DNA from: Hyaloperonospora brassicae
Lineage: Eukaryota > Oomycota > Peronosporomycetes > Peronosporales > Peronosporaceae
DNA length: 64,000 nucleotides
Reading direction: 5' to 3'
Assembly (NCBI GenBank): GCA_947650285.1
Contig: CANTFL010000730.1
Location: 62,001 to 126,000 of the forward strand
Shown: in pieces, positions 3,216 to 64,000 of the stretch
Position numbering within the stretch: position 1 is the first letter of the stretch
Layout of the letters: each line of letters begins with the position of its first letter
Notes under the pieces: generated by a model
Databases searched by the model: none
Told to the model about the DNA's origin: nothing
Seen by the model: the letters and a program-made list of their open reading frames with translations, nothing else
Translations under genes and position numbers: made by a program

Positions 3216-3530
3216 TCATAGATGTGCAAACGAAATGGTCACCTCGGCTTCCGTGCGATATGCCACGTTGATACCCGGAGACGTGTGCCAGAACTGCGAG
3301 CGCACAGCTACGCATACTGCAATCAGGGCATCGTTACACGTCTCTCACATACGTGGCCTCGTAAACTTGGCCTGTCGTACTGTCCGTCCACTCACCTGCG
3401 CTTGCACTTGAAGTTCGCGACATGGAAAAGTGCGTGAAGCCTTTCGCATATTGTTGACGGTGAAGGGCAGGAGCAGGTTGTTGAGATTGGGCAGCCACGG
3501 CGCATCACCACACGTGGGTACGTCACGCTC
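3216..3530 (-). CDS. Unidentified gene, last two exons
   Basis: Minus-strand exon from about 3530 (5' end unresolved) to 3396, ending CAG before a GTGAGT donor; intron 3395-3294 (102 nt, acceptor CGCAG); last exon 3293-3216 ending TGA. The joined frame reads VPTCGDAPWLPNLNNLLLPF, then TVNNMRKASRTFPC, then after the splice FWHTSPGINVAYRTEAEVTI and a stop. Composition is convincingly protein-like, but I do not recognise the family. The same frame is open upstream (3902-3543) apart from one TGA near 3543, so a further exon or a nonsense change may separate them. Neighbours are SLBP and the next plus-strand gene. Confidence 0.4.
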
Positions 3531-4298
3531 GGAACAAACGTGTCATCGGATGACTGGCAAACCCGAGACAGACGGACACGCAGTAGCCGAAACGAATGGC
3601 ACTGTCTTCCGCGAGCGTTGCAGTTCGGAGAAGCGGCGCAGACCATTGCGTGGTGCCCGCGCACCCACAACAACAACATCGCTCGAGGCAGACCCGAAGA
3701 TTCGTACAGAGAACGACCGCAGCTGACCACATTGGCCCCTAATTGTCGGCGGCCATTTGCTCCGTTTCGGGCCACGCGGGTCGGACAGCAAATGTCGCAC
3801 TGGATAGGCAGACGCCCCTCCCCCCCCCGCCGCCGCCGCTCCCCTCCCGTCGCATCCCAACAACTGGACGAGGGAGAAAGTCTCGACGGGATCGTTCTTC
3901 ATTTCGATGCTTGAACGCGTCGCTTATTCTGTCACATCGCGCCACGTGATTGGTCGAATCGCGTCTGCGTTGCGGCTGTCGATTGGCTCCGAGCTCTCTC
4001 TTTGCGCGTCCAGACAGCAGCAGCCGAAGGCCGTTACATCCACCAAAGTCTCCGGTGGCCAGAGGGTTATCAGACACGTAGATAGACACCGGGAGACACC
4101 CAGACAGACGGGTGGGGGGAGACACCGACGCACGGGGGAGACAGCTTCGACACGTAGTAGAGCGAGCGAGCGACACTGGCAGATAGAGGGAGGCAGGGCC
4201 CAAGGGGCATGCTGCGCTTCTAGACCAGCGTCTTTGTTGTCTCGTCTCTAGCTCGCTCGTCTTGGCGATACGGCGACTGTCGATTGGGAGCCGTCGAT

Positions 4299-5452
4299 AT
4301 GACGGGCGAAAGCGGCGCGAACCGCACGTTTCGCTCGATCTTTGGACGACAAGAGCGACTGTTTGATGAGGTGCTGGATCTCGAGGTGGACGGCCGTGCG
4401 TCGATTGGCGCGGAGGACCCGAGCGCAGGAGCTTCGGTTGCGGTGTTTGATGGAGACAAAGGCACGAGTGGTGACAATGATGATGAAAACGAGGACACTG
4501 ATGCGATGTGGCACGAGGAGCTACTGCTGGAGTGTGATGTAGCTGCAAAGAGCGGCGGTGGTCCATTGGGGCTGCAGTTAGCAGTACGTCGACGTTTTGC
4601 AACAGGCTACTGCTATCGCGCTCTTTGGTGTTGACATTTCTCGCTGGTGTTTTCCATGTGTGCCTGTAGCAGCAGCGGTCGATGGAAGCGTGGGCCGACG
4701 AAGACGACGAAGAGGACAATTGGAAAGATGCATTGCAAGATCGGGTTGACCAACTGGAACTAGCGTTCCTGCCACATGATGGTGAGGACGCTGTAGCTGC
4801 TGAAGATCGACACGGGTTGGACCAGCAATCGGTATGTCAGCTGCAAACACACGAGCTCCGTACCTGGCACACTGAAGGCAAAGTTGCGAATGGAGCAGCA
4901 GCGTCTACTCTCGTGGATGATGCACGCATGCGGTCAATCTCGATTGACTGTATAGCCCGCGACGTCCAGACTGTCGAACACTACCGCAAACGCTCAAGGT
5001 CTCTGAGCGACACGACTGATATGATGGAATCGCCTCATCATTCGCTGTCACGAAAGAACTCGTTCGGGGGCAGTGGTCGAAGCTGCATTAGCCGGAGCGG
5101 TAGTAGAGATATACGCGGGATTGAGGCACCTTTGCCGAGTGATGCTGCGCGGTCGATGTCACCCAGCGCCGCCGTATCGGTTTTGAGCGACACTGAAGCC
5201 ATTCGCCGTTTTGTGCTTGACGATGTCAAATCCGTACGTCGCCTCTGCTGTTTTCGCTCCTTGATGTGTGTTCTAACTCTTATGATGCAGATGTCCATGG
5301 AGAGACTTGTGAGCGATGCCCAGCGATTGCATTTCCTAGAGGACTTTTACCAGAACCAGCGAAGACAAGGTCTTGCCTTACCCGCCGTAATCTCTACTGC
5401 AGCGTCTGCTCCGCCACCGGTCTCTCCGTCTCCAGCCGTGTCTACACTGTGA
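4299..5452 (+). CDS. Conserved-looking acidic, Ser-rich protein, three exons
   Basis: Exons 4299-4583, 4676-5233 and 5291-5452; introns of 92 and 57 nt with donors GTACGT and GTACGT; product about 334 aa. The N-terminus has FRSIFGRQERLFDEVLDLEV followed by an acidic block; exon 2 begins with another acidic run (WADEDDEEDNWKD) and a short helix, then a Ser-rich basic section with many potential phosphosites (KRSRSLSDTTD, SLSRKNSFGGSGRS). Exon 3 adds a helical MERLVSDAQRLHFLEDFYQN and a Pro/Ala/Ser tail. I do not recognise the family. No membrane segment is seen. The first intron ends TAGCAGCAG, giving tandem acceptors. The upstream 4060-4160 region is GACAC/GGGAG-rich, likely promoter or 5' UTR. 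Confidence 0.6.
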
Positions 5453-57649: not shown

Positions 57650-58042
57650 TGTAACGGGTCAGCCCGTTACATGAAATTGTCATTTTAAAGAAACAATGAC
57701 AATAAAGAATATTAAGTTGAATATCCTATGTACAATATCACCAAAGTGGTGATATTGAACGGTCGACCAAAGAGTCTGTTCATTGGTTGATATATTGATG
57801 ATATCAACCCAACAATTGCCGCAAGACGCGCTCAATGAGTGGTGACGAGACGTCACCATACACTCAGTTATATTAACATAATTAAGTTAAGTCAAACAGA
57901 GAGACATAGATGAAAGACTTAATTATATTCATATGCTAGTTCTGCTTTTACCTTATCTACGCTTCCTCGCTTGCCTTGTGTACGTCTGTCGGGGCACCCG
58001 AAACCCTTGCGTTAAGTTCACGCAAGGGTGTGCCCCGTTACA
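57650..58042 (+). repeat. 5' LTR, made largely of hairpins
   Basis: 393 bp, TGTAACGGG at the start and CCCGTTACA at the end, followed by CCTGGTAGT, a likely primer site. Internal stems: 57650-57658/57663-57671 (9 bp), 57733-57742/57748-57757 (10), 57785-57793/57801-57809 (9), 57841-57847/57851-57857 (7), and 57991-57997 + 58003-58011 with 58021-58029 + 58030-58036 (16). Confidence 0.82.
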
Positions 58043-58068
58043 CCTGGTAGTACTTTGTAGTCCTTCCA

Positions 58069-59213
58069 ATGACCACAGCTTCCAACATGAACATGTTGGA
58101 TGACGAAGAAACATTTCACGCCACGCGTGAAGGGTTTACCCATTTGAGTGACATCGAATGGGGTGCGGCAAAACGAATGAGCTCTACCGTAGGCGAGTTC
58201 GCCATTAGCGCCATGTTGGAGTCCCTAGACAGAGACCAACAACATGCCGCTATAGCCAAGTTCATTCAAATTTAACTTGTTGCCGAAAGGGAGAAAGTAG
58301 CCTTGCTTTACCAGCAAGGCTCTCAACAGGCCGAGCAGTTGAGAGAACTCGGTGCTCAATAGACAGAGCTGTTGAGAAAGCAGCAATTCCATGCTGCTAT
58401 GGGCGGGACGGCACATGCGCGTCGTCCCGAGGTCATGAAGGTTGACATATCCAAGTATAGTGGAGTCCCGGAGGACTCCTTGTTACTGTGGTTTGTCGAA
58501 CTCGACAGAGCCTTAAGGGCTCGTCGCGTCGAAGATGAGCAAACGAAACTCACATTTGCTCAGACCCTTGGCAGGGCGTGCCAAAACTTGGTCCCTGGGG
58601 CTTGAGAGTAGCGACCCAAATGTGTTTAGGACGCTAGATGACTTCAAGTCCCGGCTCAGACAAACGTTTGAGCCACTACGAGCTGAGTTCAGGGCTCGTT
58701 CAGGGCTCGTTCTAATCTCCTTAAACTCAAGCAGGGTAAGCGATATGTGTACGCTTACGCACAACATATACAAATCCTCGCGAGTAGTATAACTACCAAC
58801 CCAGTCCATGAACACACGTTGATTACGGTGTTCGTGCAAGGGCTCGCAGAAGAGCCCGTCAGGAGCCACCTGTTCCGCCTTGAGCTGAATACGCTGGAAG
58901 AAGCGTATCAGCCGCGGAACAGGAAGACTTTAGCATGAGACAGGCTCATGCTAGATCAATCTCTTATCGTCTACCAAGACGACAAGAGATCGGAGGTCCA
59001 GAACCAATGGACATCTGCTATGTTGAGATCGAGAGACCTCGCTCTTCGAACAACAAGCGATTGCAGAGGTGCAATTGCTGTCAGAAGTTAGGGCACTATG
59101 CATACGAGTGTAGTGCTCCACGCCCAGTACCAAACAGTACTGAGCGAAATGGACGACCATTCGACAGAAAGGGCAATGGGCGTGGGTCCAGCGCTGTTGC
59201 GAAGCCGCAATAA
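58069..59213 (+). pseudogene. Gag of the hairpin-dense Gypsy element
   Basis: ATG at 58069, MTTASNMNMLDDEETFHATR. A TAA at 58273 and frame changes follow. 58372-58605 has the capsid start (VDISKYSGVPEDSLLLWFVE). 58747-58938 has NPVHEHTLITVFVQGLAEEP. 58935-59213 has a CCHC knuckle, CNCCQKLGHYAYEC. Normal Ty3 gag order. Confidence 0.85.
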
Positions 59214-59299
59214 CGAGACGGACCATCAAAAAATGGTCGGGGTCAGTAGGGGCGGAGCGCCCTACTGATCCAGCAACCTCAAGAGAATTTGAAATTCTC

Positions 59300-60550
59300 T
59301 TGACGAAAGTTGCTCCAGATACACAATCATTGTGTGTCTCTGCACATGGTGATGACGTTTCTCTCATCACCTTAAAGTTGGAAGCGACAAATGATTTGTC
59401 GCTTCGTGCCCTAGTAGACTGTTGGGCGTCGAACAACTTTGTTCGTCGCCAGTCACTAGAGGGTCGTAGGCTCAAGTTCGTTGAGCGCGACATTTCCCTC
59501 ACGAGGATGACGGTGCGCCTTGCAACAGGCGCATTGATTACCGGTGAGAAACGTGTAGTAGGAATCCACTACACGTTAGAGGGCGAACAGTACGATGATG
59601 ACTTCATCGTACTGGATCTGGATGACAAATTTGATGTCATCCTGGGATTACCTTGGCTCAGAAAGTACGAGCCAAGGGTGAGCTGGCAGCATCGGTCCGT
59701 GAAGATGCCTGCCACTTGTTCATCATATGGCCATCTGATGAATATCTTGGAGCGTCCACAAGCGTGTGGATGTTCTGCGAGTGAGTGCGATGTCCTCACT
59801 TGCGGTTCGGTCGTTAGCACGACTGCACAAGATCACGGTGTAGTTGATCACTCCACTGTGGAGCAAGCTCCCGGCGGCTGTACAGAAGTACAAGCTGCGC
59901 CGAAGGTCCACCACTCAAATAAGTCGAGTGGACCGGGACGTGGATCCATGCCTAGCGGGCAGCATCTTAGACAGAAGAAACCTGTTGCCTCCAAAGGGCA
60001 ACATGGACATCCTAGGTCGACTGGAGAGTCGACCGTAGAGGATCGGTCCTTGACTGTGGTTGAACAGCCACAGTCAGAAGAAGTCGAGGGAATAAGTCCC
60101 CACGTACTTGAGGAAGGAATTCCTCAAGAGTCACTTGCTGAAGGATTAGGCCTTCAGCAACCTGTGGAAAGAAGTTCCCAGGAAGTAACCGAGACGTTGA
60201 ACGTCTTGGTTATGGATGGGTTAAGCGTAGGCGCTTATACGCTTGATCTGATTGTGCCTCCAAAGTTAACTTCGGAGATAACTCAGTTGCCAACGCTAGA
60301 ACCGAAACGGTTCTTGCGTCATCTGCGTAGTGGCAAAGTCAAGCAGATCTGCATACTCGTCACAGAGGATGAGTATGTGGCCGATATTCGGTCGGCGACA
60401 GTATTTGCTGAGAACGAACGAGTTCTCAGCAGCTCATCGATGGACGAAAGTGTCCTCGATGAGAAGACTTGGATTGAGCAATACACGTCTCAATCCTGGG
60501 AGTCACTTCAGGCAAATATTTTGTATAAGGATTTGATCGAATTCAAGTAA
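59300..60550 (+). CDS. Gypsy protease and linker
   Basis: 416-codon intact frame. Residues ~35-50 hold the aspartic protease site ALVDCWASNNFVR, in which the Gly of D-x-G is Trp, so activity is doubtful. Then ITGEKRVVGIHYTLEGEQYD, DKFDVILGLPWLRKYEPRVS and a long low-complexity linker before RT. It is open despite hairpins about every 50 bp: stems at 59381-59405 and 59588-59614 lie in it. Confidence 0.82.
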   Translation: MTKVAPDTQSLCVSAHGDDVSLITLKLEATNDLSLRALVDCWASNNFVRRQSLEGRRLKFVERDISLTRMTVRLATGALITGEKRVVGIHYTLEGEQYDDDFIVLDLDDKFDVILGLPWLRKYEPRVSWQHRSVKMPATCSSYGHLMNILERPQACGCSASECDVLTCGSVVSTTAQDHGVVDHSTVEQAPGGCTEVQAAPKVHHSNKSSGPGRGSMPSGQHLRQKKPVASKGQHGHPRSTGESTVEDRSLTVVEQPQSEEVEGISPHVLEEGIPQESLAEGLGLQQPVERSSQEVTETLNVLVMDGLSVGAYTLDLIVPPKLTSEITQLPTLEPKRFLRHLRSGKVKQICILVTEDEYVADIRSATVFAENERVLSSSSMDESVLDEKTWIEQYTSQSWESLQANILYKDLIEFK

Positions 60551-60559
60551 GTGTTTCCT

Positions 60560-61910
60560 GAATCCGTACCGTGCGAGTTGACTAAGGGCAAAGGCACTCG
60601 ACACGAGATCGAGCTCAGACCGGGCTCGAAGTATTGTGTCATGAAGCAGTGGCCACTGCCTCGTGAATAAGTGCTAGCGATCGACAAGTTCTTTGCCGAT
60701 CGCTTAGCAGCGGGCCATGTGAGGGAATCAACATCCTCTCACAGCTCTCCGGCCTTCTGTGTGCGAAAGTCCAAAGGAGGATGACGGATAGTGCACGCAT
60801 TCAACAAATTGAATGCTGCAACTGTACCGGCTCAGATGCCGATACCGAGGAAGGACGTAATCATAGATATTATGTCAAAGAGTACCATCTTTTCGTCCAT
60901 GGATCTGATGGATGGATTATATCAGATCCTCATGCGTGAACGGGATGTTCCGTTCACGGCAGTGAGTACCCTTAGCGGTATACTGTGGCAGTGGCTAGTG
61001 ATGCCACAGGGGCTGAGCAATTCCCCTGCAACATTCAACAGATGTGTTACAAGTCTGTTGAGACCGGTGCGTGACTTCGCACCGAGTTACTTCGACGATG
61101 TGTTCGTCCATAGCCGGGCTATGGACGGAAAGACGGACGTTGAAGTTCACAGAACTCACGTTCGTCAGATTCTTCAACTTATGCGCAGGCAGAAGTTGTA
61201 CGCAAACCTCAAGAAGTGCATATTCGCGGCTAGCGAAATACCACTTCTTGGGTGCATCGTGGGTAAACACGGCGTACGCCCTGATCCCGAAAAGATCAAG
61301 GCGGTCACCGACTGGCCAGTGCCAGTCGATGTCAAGAGACTAAGGAAGTTCCTTGGCTAGCGGCGTACTTGCACAAGTACTCGCGCAACTACGCCGAGAT
61401 GACTGTTCATCTTTCTTGCTTGCTCAAGAAAATGTCAAGTGGTCATGGAACGCTGAGTGCCAGCGTTCCTTTCAAGGTATCAAGTAAAGCTTGATGCAAT
61501 CGCCGATCTTGGCGATTGCAGATCAGGAAAGACCATTTCATGTGGTCTGTGACGCCAGCGATTTTTCAAACGGCTGTGCGTTAATGCATTTCGACACAGA
61601 TGGCGTGGAGCGCGTCATCTGTTATCAGTCGCGTCAGCTGCAAGCAGCTGACCGCAATTACTCAATGCATGACAAGGAACTCATTGCCATGAAGTATGCA
61701 CTGGCTATTTTCCGGGTCTATCTCTTGGGAGATAGGCCTTTCATCGTCTATACGGACCATGCGTCATGACGCACGGCCGTGAACAGCTCGCAACTCTCGC
61801 AAAGAATGGCGAGGTGGCTGTCTTTTTTCGCGGAGTATAACTTCTCCGCGGAGTATAAACCAGGACGACTAAACGTCGTCGATGATTCGCTTTCGCGCCG
61901 GACGCACAAT
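60560..61910 (+). pseudogene. Gypsy reverse transcriptase and RNase H
   Basis: 60791-61360: SSMDLMDGLYQILMRERDVP, LWQWLVMPQGLSNSPATFNR, catalytic SYFDDVFVHS, KCIFAASEIPLLGCIVGKHG. Stop at 61358. 61491-61769: RNase H with VCDASDFSNGCALMHFD, HDKELIAMKYALAIF and YTDHAS, then a stop; the frame resumes to RLNVVDDSLSRR at about 61,900. Breaks at 60,550, 60,668, 60,787, 61,358 and 61,767. Confidence 0.88.
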
Positions 61911-62020
61911 TAAACAGTGATAATAAGCCCACTGTTGCGATACTGATAGCCAGTGTCCCGTCGTCAAGTTTACTTGACGACGTACGAAAGGCATACGCGG
62001 AAGATAAGGATCTCCTGCGA

Positions 62021-64000
62021 TTGATGGATCATCTGGTGCATCCATCCAGTAAATCAATAAGGGATTTACCAGCTTTGTACCGATCCTCATTTGATCGGTA
62101 TAGTACACGCAACGGAATGCTGTACTATACAGCTGTTGCCGACGACACGCCTCGTGTCGTCGTAGCCGCTCATCATGACTTGCGTTTACGCGTGACGTAT
62201 GAGTGTCACGATGTCCCAACAGGCGGGCATCGTGGTACAGAAAAGACTTACCTAACGGTAAGTCGTGACTTTTACTGGCCACACCAGTATCAGTTTGTCC
62301 GCAAGTACATACGTGCTAGCGAGGTTTGTCAACGGATGAAGCCTAGTCCTTCATCCCGTGCGCCATTGCAGCCTCTGCCTGTTCCGACAGAGTGCTGGCA
62401 GTCCGTTTCAATGGACTTCGTCTTCGGACTTCCCGAAGACGCTCACAAGAATAATGGTATTCTTGTGTTTGTTGACCGATTCAGCAAGATGGTCCATCTT
62501 GTTGCAGTCTCTAAGTCGATCAAGGCTTCAAGGTTGTGCTCGTGTCTTTCTAGACACGGTCTTTAGACTCCACGGGTTACCCCGTGAACTCGTATCCGAC
62601 CGTGACCCTCGATTCACGGCGGAATTTTGGCAAACCGTGTTCCGTTCTCTCGGAACACGATTGAAGATGTCCACTTCTGACCATCCAGAAACAGATGGTC
62701 AGACGGAACGTGCGAACCGTGTCCTCGAAGAGATCCTTCGAGGATACGTCCACTCGTTTCCGAGTTGGAGCGAATTCCTACCCATGGTGGAATTCGCCAT
62801 CAATAATTCGGTGCATGCTTCAACACAGCACACACCGTTTTACGTGAATGGCCTACGCCATCCACGAGTGTCCACCCTTCTAGAGTGTGACTCTTGGATA
62901 AGAGGGGGAGGGACTCGCTCGAGCAAAAACCGTTTTGGCTCTTGCTCATCACGTATCGACGCTAACGTCGTCACGTATGATGCCGATGTCGATCAAGTCG
63001 ACATCGATGAAAAAGATCGCCTCAATAATAACGATGACGCTGTTATTGACTCGGATGATGATGACGATGCTGGTATATTCAGCATCGTCAACGATTATGC
63101 CAGCGAGGAAGAAGACAACCTCGCTGAAGAAGAGAGCAATCTCTTAGCAGTGCGCACGAAGCGCACTGAAAGACAAAACAAAGAGTCAGCAGATAACTTC
63201 CTGCTGAATCGAGAGGCGGTAGTCCGTTTCGTCCAGGACTCCATTGCAAATGCGGTGGATTGCCAGAAACGGAATGCAGACAAAAATGGAAGAGCAAATG
63301 TTCTTTCATTAAATATAAACGACCTAGTACTACTGTCTGCGGTAAACTTACCTGGAGATGCAGTCACTAGTGTCGGCAGTAGTAAACTACTGCCGAAGTA
63401 CATTGGGCCATTTCGAGTGTTGCATCGCAAGGGCAATGAATACACGATCGAATTGCCACGTAAGATGCGCGCGCATCCTACGTTTTACGTGAAGAGGCTC
63501 AGGCCTTACTGTCTGTACGAGCCTTCTTCTTCCGATGAAGATAGCCCCCACGTTCAAGAACATCCATCAAGTTCTTGCGTTCGCGCTCCAGATGATCCGT
63601 CTGGTCGCGCAGATATGATACCTCGGAACTCAACCGAGATGTCTCGCCTCGAGCTGTCGCCAGCTCGCCTAAAAGGGAGCGTACATCCCGCTCGACCTGA
63701 AGCTGCGCTGTGGCATAATCGGCGCGATCCCTCGACCGATCAGCCTCGCGATCATTGCGGTTCTTCCGCACGGTATCAGTCAAAGCGTAGCGCCGGTCGC
63801 GCTCGTGCTTCAAGTCATCGCGCAAATCATCGATTGCGTGATCCATCTCGTACGGGTCGAGATGATGAACAGAATTATCTGGAGGAGGTCTTTCCTCCTC
63901 CACCACATCCTTTAATGGATGCTCTCGGTGATCAACGCTTTCTAGTGGAGCGTATCTCGAATCACCGTGACGATTCAGGATCAAGGACGAGCTACCTCGT
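62021..64000 (+). pseudogene. Gypsy integrase and C-terminal chromodomain, partial
   Basis: 62021-62566: zinc site H-H-C-C region (HDVPTGGHRGTEKTYLTVSR, SEVCQRMKPSPSSRAPLQP) and first Asp in SMDFVFGLPEDAHKNNG. Next frame from 62,536: second Asp in LVSDRDPRFTAEFWQTVFRS and third Glu in HPETDGQTERANRVLEEI. An Asp-rich insert (62,970-63,090) follows, then LLPKYIGPFRVLHRKGNEYT, HPTFYVKRLRPY and a Ser/Pro/Arg-rich part into the chromodomain start at the window edge. Confidence 0.88.

Follow-up and report, generated by a model that had tools for sequence, protein, structure and literature searches.

Perfect hairpin tiling of a Ty3/Gypsy retrotransposon in Hyaloperonospora brassicae: a candidate counterpart of genome-scale ordered structure

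Ordered genome folding and related retrotransposons

Genome-wide folding is a property of some RNA viruses; it has been linked to persistence and is hard to explain. Published accounts of this genome-scale ordered structure (GORS) describe hundreds of short-range stem-loops that run through coding regions in some relatives but not in others. In these accounts the pairings are poorly conserved from one relative to another, paired sites show less diversity, and predicted duplexes are capped near 11 bp (PMC3950689). The Ty3/Gypsy element described here, from a 64,000-nucleotide stretch of the oomycete Hyaloperonospora brassicae (the window), is like GORS in these respects as described. Its mean predicted folding excess (MFED) of 49.6% lies above the viral means compared, which are given as 7–9% for hepatitis C virus, 15% for SARS-CoV-2, and 23.4% for the highest coronavirus mean; ORF3a of SARS-CoV-2 is reported to have a local peak over 50%. 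Also in contrast to GORS as reported, the stems here are perfectly Watson–Crick with few G·U pairs, are equal on the two strands, and continue through the LTRs.

GORS is defined by a genome-wide MFED over 3%, by pairings that are not conserved between relatives, and by a positive-strand RNA virus genome as host; a further mark of the class is that host sensors recognise such genomes less. The MFED of the element is far over that value. Only 22 of 549 pairs of L021, a copy of the family found in the window (family A), are shared with L029 of a second family, but 51 of 79 hairpins are kept in the close subfamily L042. The host is an LTR retrotransposon, so the element behaves like GORS without belonging to the class as defined.

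Several LTR retrotransposons share other properties with the element. The genomic RNAs of Ty3 and Ty1 likewise contain structured regions, which in the published account cover no more than about 30% of the RNA; that account does not describe tiling by perfect hairpins (PMC11381356). Chronos is likewise an oomycete Ty3/Gypsy element with a chromodomain, but it is reported to have a second RNase H of the archaeal/plant type (PMC5348765), for which the L021 pol gives no Pfam match at E 1e-3. The words “hairpin” and “antisense” are absent from the main text on Chronos (PMC5348765). Retand, a Gypsy element of plants, likewise is described with an antisense ORF lying after pol and before the 3′ LTR; it belongs to a non-chromovirus plant lineage, and the abstract describing it does not mention hairpin tiling (PMC11963269). 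The antisense proteins of the present element have no Pfam match above the cut-off, a difference from Retand that is judged by Pfam matches.

The window copy and its hairpins

Positions 57650–64000 (+ strand) are the window part of a 7980-bp Ty3/Gypsy LTR retrotransposon, which starts at 57650 and ends at about 65629, beyond the window. The copy is old and broken, and its LTRs are 89% identical, which makes it a decayed member of a young family. LTR identity is at least 99% in 13 of the 18 further copies measured, these being part of the assembly’s total. The assignment to Ty3/Gypsy follows from the LTR ends, TG...CA (TGTAACGG...CCGTTACA), and from the domain order gag, protease, RT, RNase H, integrase found by Pfam in L021. 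The L021 matches include Retrotrans_gag, a zinc knuckle in gag (with a score under Pfam’s cut-off), and a chromodomain in pol (PF00385, E 7.4e-13). A perfect 5-bp target duplication is present in 9 of the 19 copies tabulated and absent from the window copy. The alignment of copies leaves out L011, which has no LTR pair, and L016, whose table row pairs LTRs from neighbouring copies. Named relatives of the element are from Peronospora, Phytophthora, and Globisporangium. A search of viral contigs returned no relatives, and a search of genome contigs returned one distant locus, L031, which is untiled and has an RT 40% identical. L030, L032, and L033, considered as separate families, turned out to be the same family.

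A preliminary description of this DNA had reported that the coding sequence of the element is tiled with perfect hairpins. This observation is confirmed, and the tiling is stronger than was claimed. Between 57650 and 64000 there are 54 perfect stems of at least 8 bp, 37 of them of at least 9 bp; at the 8-bp threshold the rest of the window (1–57649) has 25, or 0.43 per kb, and the EF-G gene, named in that description among the untiled sequences, has none. The earlier count of 30 stems (non-overlapping, 9 bp or longer, loops of 1–23 nt) between 58081 and 63396 becomes 32 on recounting, with 31 of the 32 loops under 15 nt, and the “over 30” stems of 6–8 bp become 78 in the same interval. The most extreme hairpins have 12-bp stems and 1-nt loops and lie at 59381–59405 and 59279–59303, the latter previously placed at 59280–59302 with a stem of 11 bp. 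Stems of 11 bp lie at 59588–59614 (loop 5), 61105–61127 (loop 1), 61959–61982 (loop 2), 63062–63090 (loop 7), and 63373–63396 (loop 2), the third and the last of these as listed before. Stems of 10 bp lie at 59550–59577 (loop 8), 60135–60160 (loop 6), 60406–60431 (loop 6), 61495–61520 (loop 6), 62098–62130 (loop 13), 62140–62162 (loop 3), 62444–62467 (loop 4), and 62676–62703 (loop 8). A further 20 stems of the window copy are 9 bp each, and the pairing of 60983–60990 with 61002–61009 is present as reported.

The 5′ LTR (57650–58042, +) is tiled too: its 391 nt contain 6 stems of 8 bp or more, including hairpins at 57733–57757 (11-bp stem, loop 3) and 58003–58029 (10-bp stem, loop 7). The gag region (58069–59300, +, limits approximate) has a frame broken by stop codons in this copy and was placed by the L021 gag frame. 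Three pieces of pol are open on the + strand, as follows. Counting stems of at least 8 bp, the piece at 59300–60550 has 13 (mean after codon shuffling 0.61, maximum 4), that with the reverse transcriptase motifs (60791–61360) has 7 (mean 0.31, maximum 2), and that with the integrase and C-terminal part (62358–63998) has 13 (mean 0.58, maximum 3), with 300 shuffles for each. At its 3′ end the element has an open antisense frame, whose window part is at 63499–63999 (−) and which corresponds to the antisense ORF found, with relatives, in the 3′ region of L021. The fossil state of the copy, the tiling of both LTRs, and the antisense gene in the 3′ part lay beyond the view of the preliminary description.

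The codon-shuffle check proposed there was run. Taken together, the three open pieces span 3459 nt and contain 33 stems of 8 bp or more, against a mean of 1.47 and a maximum of 6 in 1000 shuffles. For the L021 pol, the figures are 67 stems against a mean of 2.23 and a maximum of 8 (n = 1000). Stems in the register that matches third codon positions with third codon positions are under-represented: they number 11 of 70 in the L021 pol (stems of 8 bp or more), against 462 of 1545 in 60 shuffles (stems of 6 bp or more). The loss of stems on codon shuffling and this depletion bear out the suggestion that synonymous codon choice makes the stems of the coding region. Chance or base composition, for which nothing was found in favour, is ruled out as a source of the tiling, and we give it negligible weight. 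Codon shuffles fail to give the tiling, as does first-order resampling of the LTR and 3′ region; the flanks of the copies have just 0.76 stems per kb; and five copies of an untiled third family (family C), similar in GC, have 0.3–0.7 per kb.

Tiling density is 12.5–18 per kb across the LTR, gag, pol, and 3′ region. Young copies of the family have 105–116 stems each in about 8 kb, whereas the worn window copy has 71 over its full length; L023, with LTRs that are unlike (0.920), yet has 108. MFED has the same mean on either strand and ranges from 29 to 70% over 44 fragments of L021. Stem lengths stop near 11 bp, and stems of 5–7 bp are likewise in excess. Hairpin energies on the RNA scale are spread less than those of random arms of the same length (p 1.1e-5 in L021, 0.02–0.05 in four other loci), and in L029 there is no trade-off between stem length and GC.

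Stem conservation within and between families

In the second family (family B), with 47–64% protein identity, the tiling lies at different positions. Nevertheless, 213 of the 549 L021 pairs are Watson–Crick in L029, against 134–161 for slid pairs, so some pairing is kept. Both tiled families have some copies with identical LTRs, and both fold equally on the two strands. Family C, in the same genome, has no perfect stems and still has a folding excess of 13–14%, which is larger on the minus strand in five of five related copies (p 0.008 to 0.21). It follows that the tie between tiling and the success of an element is loose.

The hairpins of the element extend into the 3′ region that codes on the opposite strand. 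Ambisense coding was considered as a cause of the tiling and rejected: untiled family C copies also have long 3′ antisense frames, and the antisense gene therefore fails to distinguish tiled families from untiled ones. The antisense proteins of the two tiled families look alike by eye, and BLAST finds no match between them.

Conservation of the stems was examined by comparing stem positions with 2000 slid masks. From L018 to L019, 94 of 120 hairpins have identical arms (slid mean 75.1, maximum 91, n = 2000), and in the reverse direction 105 of 118 do. From L042 to L021, arms are identical in 36 of 60 hairpins (slid mean 13.6, maximum 31). In the dead copies, namely the window copy, L020, and L013, private changes show no avoidance of stems; 365, 1815, and 1464 of the 2000 slid masks, respectively, reach the observed value. 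The keeping of stems in young copies and their loss in dead ones make it likely that selection maintains them. The pol synonymous rate between L018 and L019 shows no reduction in stems (14/472 against 43/1160, p 0.55).

Paired substitutions, which the preliminary description had suggested looking for, give a divided answer. Between L021 and L042, 26 of 677 pairs are changed on both sides, against 6.6 expected, and 20 of the 26 remain Watson–Crick. These 20 are nevertheless outnumbered by 82 single-sided changes, and in the comparison of L018 with L019, 36 changes are single-sided and 3 are paired. The double changes are mainly transitions (18 of 23, 56% expected, p 0.023), a bias consistent with two-step change by way of a wobble pair.

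Explanations for the tiling

Our best reading is that the tiling is a retrotransposon counterpart of genome-scale ordered structure, maintained by selection, and selection is the likely cause of the tiling. A second pattern overlies the LTRs and genes, in the form of more than 100 local perfect hairpins per young copy, and these would keep the single strands of the element's replication cycle folded on themselves in beaded form. Strands so folded are predicted to avoid long duplexes with complementary RNA, and fewer such duplexes would shield the element from RNA silencing. We put it at about even that the hairpin chain of the young copies was selected to keep single-stranded copies folded, with escape from silencing as the predicted benefit. 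Small RNAs in both orientations are reported from Gypsy elements of Phytophthora infestans (PMC3522703). The preliminary description had offered beaded genomic RNA as one cause. As the sole cause this is too simple, since selection on the genomic RNA alone predicts that G·U would be favoured over A·C in stems, and it is not. Either both strands matter or the folding takes place at the DNA level. We take it that genomic RNA and the minus-strand copy both matter, the minus strand possibly more. Codon choice and selection for folding are thus the parts of the earlier interpretation that we retain.

Three other explanations deserve consideration. Selection might act mainly on the first-strand (minus) cDNA, which is single-stranded DNA in each replication cycle, with hairpins that protect or compact it and no part for RNA silencing. 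The failure of G·U to do better than A·C in stems speaks for this. Stem mismatches between L018 and L019 are 10 G·U and 20 A·C, against 77 and 54 corresponding changes outside stems (p 0.015), and an A·C on the plus strand is a G·T wobble on the minus strand; the plus-strand loops are A-rich, hence T-rich on the minus strand, in L021 and L042 (p 2.4e-5, 0.0016); and the minus-strand bias of family C folding points the same way. However, these strand tests are single, small, and uncorrected for multiple testing, loops show no significant A-richness in L029, L038, and L039, energies are evened out more on the RNA than on the DNA scale, and the equal folding of both strands in families A and B also argues against it. 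We regard this explanation as rather unlikely. The packaging alternative, in which Gag binds the hairpins as many weak signals and condenses the genomic RNA inside the particle, would agree with tiling over the entire transcribed length and with the sub-threshold zinc knuckle of gag. No common loop sequence is seen by eye in the L022 hairpin list, and binding of genomic RNA leaves the rarity of G·U, equal to that of A·C, unexplained; we consider it very unlikely.

A mutational origin, also raised in the preliminary description, would have the reverse transcriptase switch templates onto its own product and perfect near-palindromes, with no benefit to the element. Quasipalindrome-associated template switching can reportedly make imperfect inverted repeats perfect. 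Copying of this kind would give Watson–Crick stems with G·U as rare as A·C, the excess of 5–7 bp stems could supply seeds, and dead copies, no longer reverse transcribed, would drift neutrally as they do. The paired-change excess and arm bias expected of such switching are not seen in this element, however. Single-sided changes outnumber paired ones in both comparisons given above, changes fall on the 5′ and 3′ arms about equally (70 against 60), the arms are equally conserved in the RT protein (0.744 and 0.706, p 0.55), and the predominance of transitions among double changes speaks against it as well. Template-switch correction is thus not supported, and we think it quite unlikely.

Returning to selection for folding, a bolder form of it can be tentatively proposed. 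The genome may be written twice, once for protein and control and once as stability-matched hairpins that both strands can form; the minus strand, as first-strand cDNA or antisense RNA, would be the main target, and the pattern would have arisen or been rebuilt independently in two old families of oomycetes. This is possible, though we doubt it more than we believe it. If true, it would mean folding heavier than in any viral genome compared and a new route for mobile elements to escape silencing.

Predicted genome-wide folding now appears in an LTR retrotransposon, and much more strongly than in those RNA viruses. Sister copies of differing age show what is kept, in the young ones, and what drifts, in the dead ones. 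With an untiled sister family in the same genome and aged copies alongside, the purpose of genome-wide folding becomes directly testable. The pattern also cautions against treating synonymous sites in these elements as neutral, with consequences for dating and dN/dS.

Perfect hairpins along a Ty3/Gypsy element

The window (G000:C449:62001-126000, in a genome of 100.6 Mb and 898 contigs) carries a Ty3/Gypsy retrotransposon of 7980 bp, one LTR of which is at 57650-58042 and the other outside the window. Its closest named protein relatives are from Peronospora effusa (93% over the RT), Phytophthora and Globisporangium, which suggests a downy mildew genome. In a young copy, L021, the gag frame overlaps a pol frame that encodes protease, RT, RNase H, integrase and chromodomain. 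Since the two frames differ and overlap by about 100 nt (element positions 1485-1587), pol probably requires a ribosomal frameshift.

The preliminary description held that the retrotransposon at 57650-64000 is tiled with perfect hairpins and that the EF-G gene is free of them, and both statements are borne out. Counted by script as non-overlapping perfect Watson-Crick pairings with loops of 1-20 nt, stems in this segment number 54 at a minimum length of 8 bp and 37 at a minimum of 9 bp, versus 25 and 10 in the remaining 57,649 bases of the window; the EF-G gene has 0 stems of at least 8 bp. The proposed check by codon shuffles, which retain protein and codon use, does not reproduce the pattern: the three open-frame pieces of the window copy (3459 nt) contain 33 stems of 8 bp or more, versus a mean of 1.47 and a maximum of 6 in 1000 shuffles. 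In L021, pol has 67 stems (mean 2.23 and maximum 8 in 1000 shuffles) and gag 15 (mean 0.69 and maximum 4 in 300).

In L021 the tiling extends through the 5′ LTR (15 stems per kb), gag (12.5), pol (13.7) and the 1110 bp after pol (18). The number of 4-bp stems is what chance would give (198 versus 193.2), and that of 9-bp stems is not (37 versus 0.2). The third-to-third codon-position pairing register is avoided, being used by 11/70 pol stems versus 462/1545 shorter stems (60 shuffles). In L022, another copy, inverted stems predominate among repeats of at least 8 bp (119, versus 5 direct and 3 mirror repeats). With loops of 3-20 nt, 38 of its stems are of 8 bp, 32 of 9 bp, 31 of 10 bp, 9 of 11 bp and 2 of 12 bp; the modes are 4-5 nt for the loop and 23-26 nt for the span.

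The RT region as a DNA query scored at 40 places in the genome. Nineteen further copies were taken and an LTR pair was obtained in 18, the row for L016 being left out because LTRs of neighbouring copies were paired there. The window copy is old (LTR identity 89.3%) and retains 71 stems of 8 bp or more over the full element. LTR identity is at least 0.99 in 13 of the 18 other copies, with 105-116 stems each, and falls to 0.987 in L013 (100 stems), 0.974 in L012 (107) and 0.921 in L020 (69). L023 (G000:C225:2800-11800) is an exception to the age trend, with 108 stems at an LTR identity of 0.920. Its hairpins are near-intact and its private changes few (73) despite the 92% LTR identity; one LTR was perhaps acquired through recombination. 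DNA flanking the copies has 0.76 stems per kb.

Conservation of stems between copies

Stems were compared between copies against a null in which stem masks are slid along the element (2000 placements). L018 and L019, each with identical LTRs, differ from one another at 269 sites. Arms are identical in L019 for 94/120 hairpins of L018 (slid masks, mean 75.1, maximum 91) and in L018 for 105/118 hairpins of L019 (mean 73.7, maximum 91). L042 represents a subfamily with 85% identity to L021 over 5.6 kb. Here 36/60 hairpins have identical arms (mean 13.6, maximum 31), and in the reverse direction 31/79 (mean 16.5; 1/2000 slid masks as high). Private changes of old copies do not avoid stems, the observed value being reached by 365/2000 slid masks for the window copy, 1815/2000 for L020 and 1464/2000 for L013.

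Between L018 and L019, changes are fewer in stems of the 5′ LTR (2/136 stem sites versus 22/261 others, p 0.006). Synonymous third-position changes are likewise fewer in stems of an antisense gene described below (9/127 versus 34/198 outside, p 0.011); the values are 2/97 versus 20/299 in gag (p 0.12), 14/472 versus 43/1160 in pol, where there is no difference (p 0.55), and 25/696 versus 97/1657 for the three pooled (p 0.025). Third-position differences between L021 and L042 number 9/303 in shared stems and 70/225 in one-sided stems; since shared stems are conserved by definition, the fair comparison is only that of the sum, 79/528, with 338/1226 outside.

Related families and an antisense gene

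The conserved RT peptide pattern occurs at 1198 places in the genome, and 6-kb pieces were taken from eight. Three families emerge, as follows. Family A groups with L021 and includes L035 (11.8 stems per kb) and L038 (5.8); family B comprises L039 (2.8), L029 (7.0) and the old L043 (3.4); family C (L034, L036, L037, L040 and L041) has 0.3-0.7. L029 has 321-bp LTRs that are identical to each other, and its protein identity to L021 is 64 and 47% over two pol pieces. On contigs C202, C328 and C873 of G000, the L029-family RT lies within the first 4.7 kb at near-equal distance from the start (3396-4700), as if this young family's LTR had broken the assembly.

Of 549 pairs in L021, 22 are common to L029, and 213 are Watson-Crick there versus 134-161 for slid pairs; stem positions are thus not the conserved feature between A and B. 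In the RT tree, B and C group together with Globisporangium elements (support 71), apart from A, which clusters with Peronospora and environmental elements (86-100). The tiling therefore reflects either two gains or a loss in family C.

Folding excess over dinucleotide-shuffled sequence (MFED; 350-nt fragments, 12 shuffles each) reaches 49.6% on both strands in L021, 41.1% in L042, 36.4% in the worn window copy, 15.5% in L029 and 7.0% in L039, versus -0.7% in L031, a distant locus, and -2.2% and -2.1% in two host DNA pieces. Published values are 7-9% for hepatitis C virus and 15% for SARS-CoV-2, where a local peak exceeds 50%; the top coronavirus mean is given as 23.4% (PMC7642675). Family C has near-zero perfect 8-bp stems, yet its MFED is 14.0% in L037 and 12.7% in L034 and, compared by strand across the family, 8.5-18% on the plus and 14-19% on the minus; it may therefore hold a looser ordered structure. 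Hairpin energies on the RNA scale are less variable than those of random arms of equal length in L021 (p 1.1e-5), L042 (p 0.021), L029 (p 0.047), L038 (p 0.017) and L039 (p 0.034), and on the DNA scale only in L021 (p 0.006; the other four, p 0.10-0.30). In L021, GC falls as stem length rises (rho -0.35, p 2e-5); the same test finds no such relation in L029.

The seemingly noncoding region of L021 that separates pol from the 3′ LTR encodes, in antisense, an ORF of 534 aa (P0123; L021:6349-7953, minus); the window holds part of the corresponding frame at 63499-63999 (minus). L029 has a 465-aa frame at the matching place (L029:380-1777, plus, with pol on minus). P0123 has five database relatives, including one in Hyaloperonospora arabidopsidis (64%) that one source labels "Core-binding (CB) domain-containing". 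Neither the L021 nor the L029 protein has a Pfam match above cut-off; the P0123 C-terminus gives weak coiled-coil-type matches below it. In the L018-L019 comparison, its pN/pS is 0.34 where it does not overlap pol and 0.15 for residues 140-330. Judged from its sequence, the antisense gene is conserved and under purifying selection. Plant Retand elements share antisense ORFs at the corresponding site, between pol and the 3′ LTR (PMC11963269).

Origin and possible role of the hairpins

Three causes had been put forward for the stems: template switching, selection for a beaded RNA, and some function at the DNA level. Self-copying by the reverse transcriptase would yield many paired changes and a bias towards one arm. 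Paired changes do occur among family copies: with L042 as the comparison, both sides have changed in 26 of 677 L021 pairs versus 6.6 expected, 20 of the 26 remaining Watson-Crick, and 82 pairs have one-sided changes. In the union of L021 and L042 stems, 23 doubly changed pairs are Watson-Crick in both copies; 18/23 are transitions, versus 56% outside stems (p 0.023), as are 10/10 within shared stems. Between L018 and L019, 3 doubly changed pairs stand against 36 single-sided changes, and the arms are changed about equally (5′ 70, 3′ 60). This scarcity and evenness do not support self-copying, and selection is thus preferred here over a mutational process.

As for what is selected, the suggestion of a beaded genomic RNA fits best as to selection for folding and is too narrow in confining it to the genomic RNA. 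Such RNA-only selection should favour G.U pairs, and single-mismatch stems from five loci have 36 G.U and 32 A.C; the conserved L021/L042 hairpins have 6 and 9. L018-L019 stem mismatches (G.U 10, A.C 20, versus 77 and 54 for the corresponding change types outside stems; p 0.015) lean to the minus strand, in a single test with uncorrected p. Plus-strand loops are A-rich in L021 (p 2.4e-5) and L042 (p 0.0016), not significantly so in L029, L038 and L039. The two strands have the same MFED in families A and B, and in 5/5 related copies of family C the minus strand is somewhat ahead (p 0.008 to 0.21). From mismatch counts, loop bases and strand-wise folding, both strands probably matter, the minus strand possibly more. 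The strongest rival to a role in escape from silencing is folding of the first-strand cDNA.

The tiling resembles genome-scale ordered structure as described for RNA viruses, in which hairpins are everywhere, are placed differently between relatives and have duplexes capped near 11 bp (PMC3950689). Among the open-licence papers that literature searches brought up, titles and abstract openings describe no hairpin tiling of retrotransposons; such tiling may still have been published elsewhere. In Phytophthora infestans, small RNAs of both orientations lie along Gypsy elements, and Dicer has been proposed to cut long duplexes into 21-nt siRNAs (PMC3522703). We predict that the folded strands serve escape from silencing: self-folding of each single strand would block pairing with complementary RNA, and fewer long duplexes would leave less substrate for silencing.
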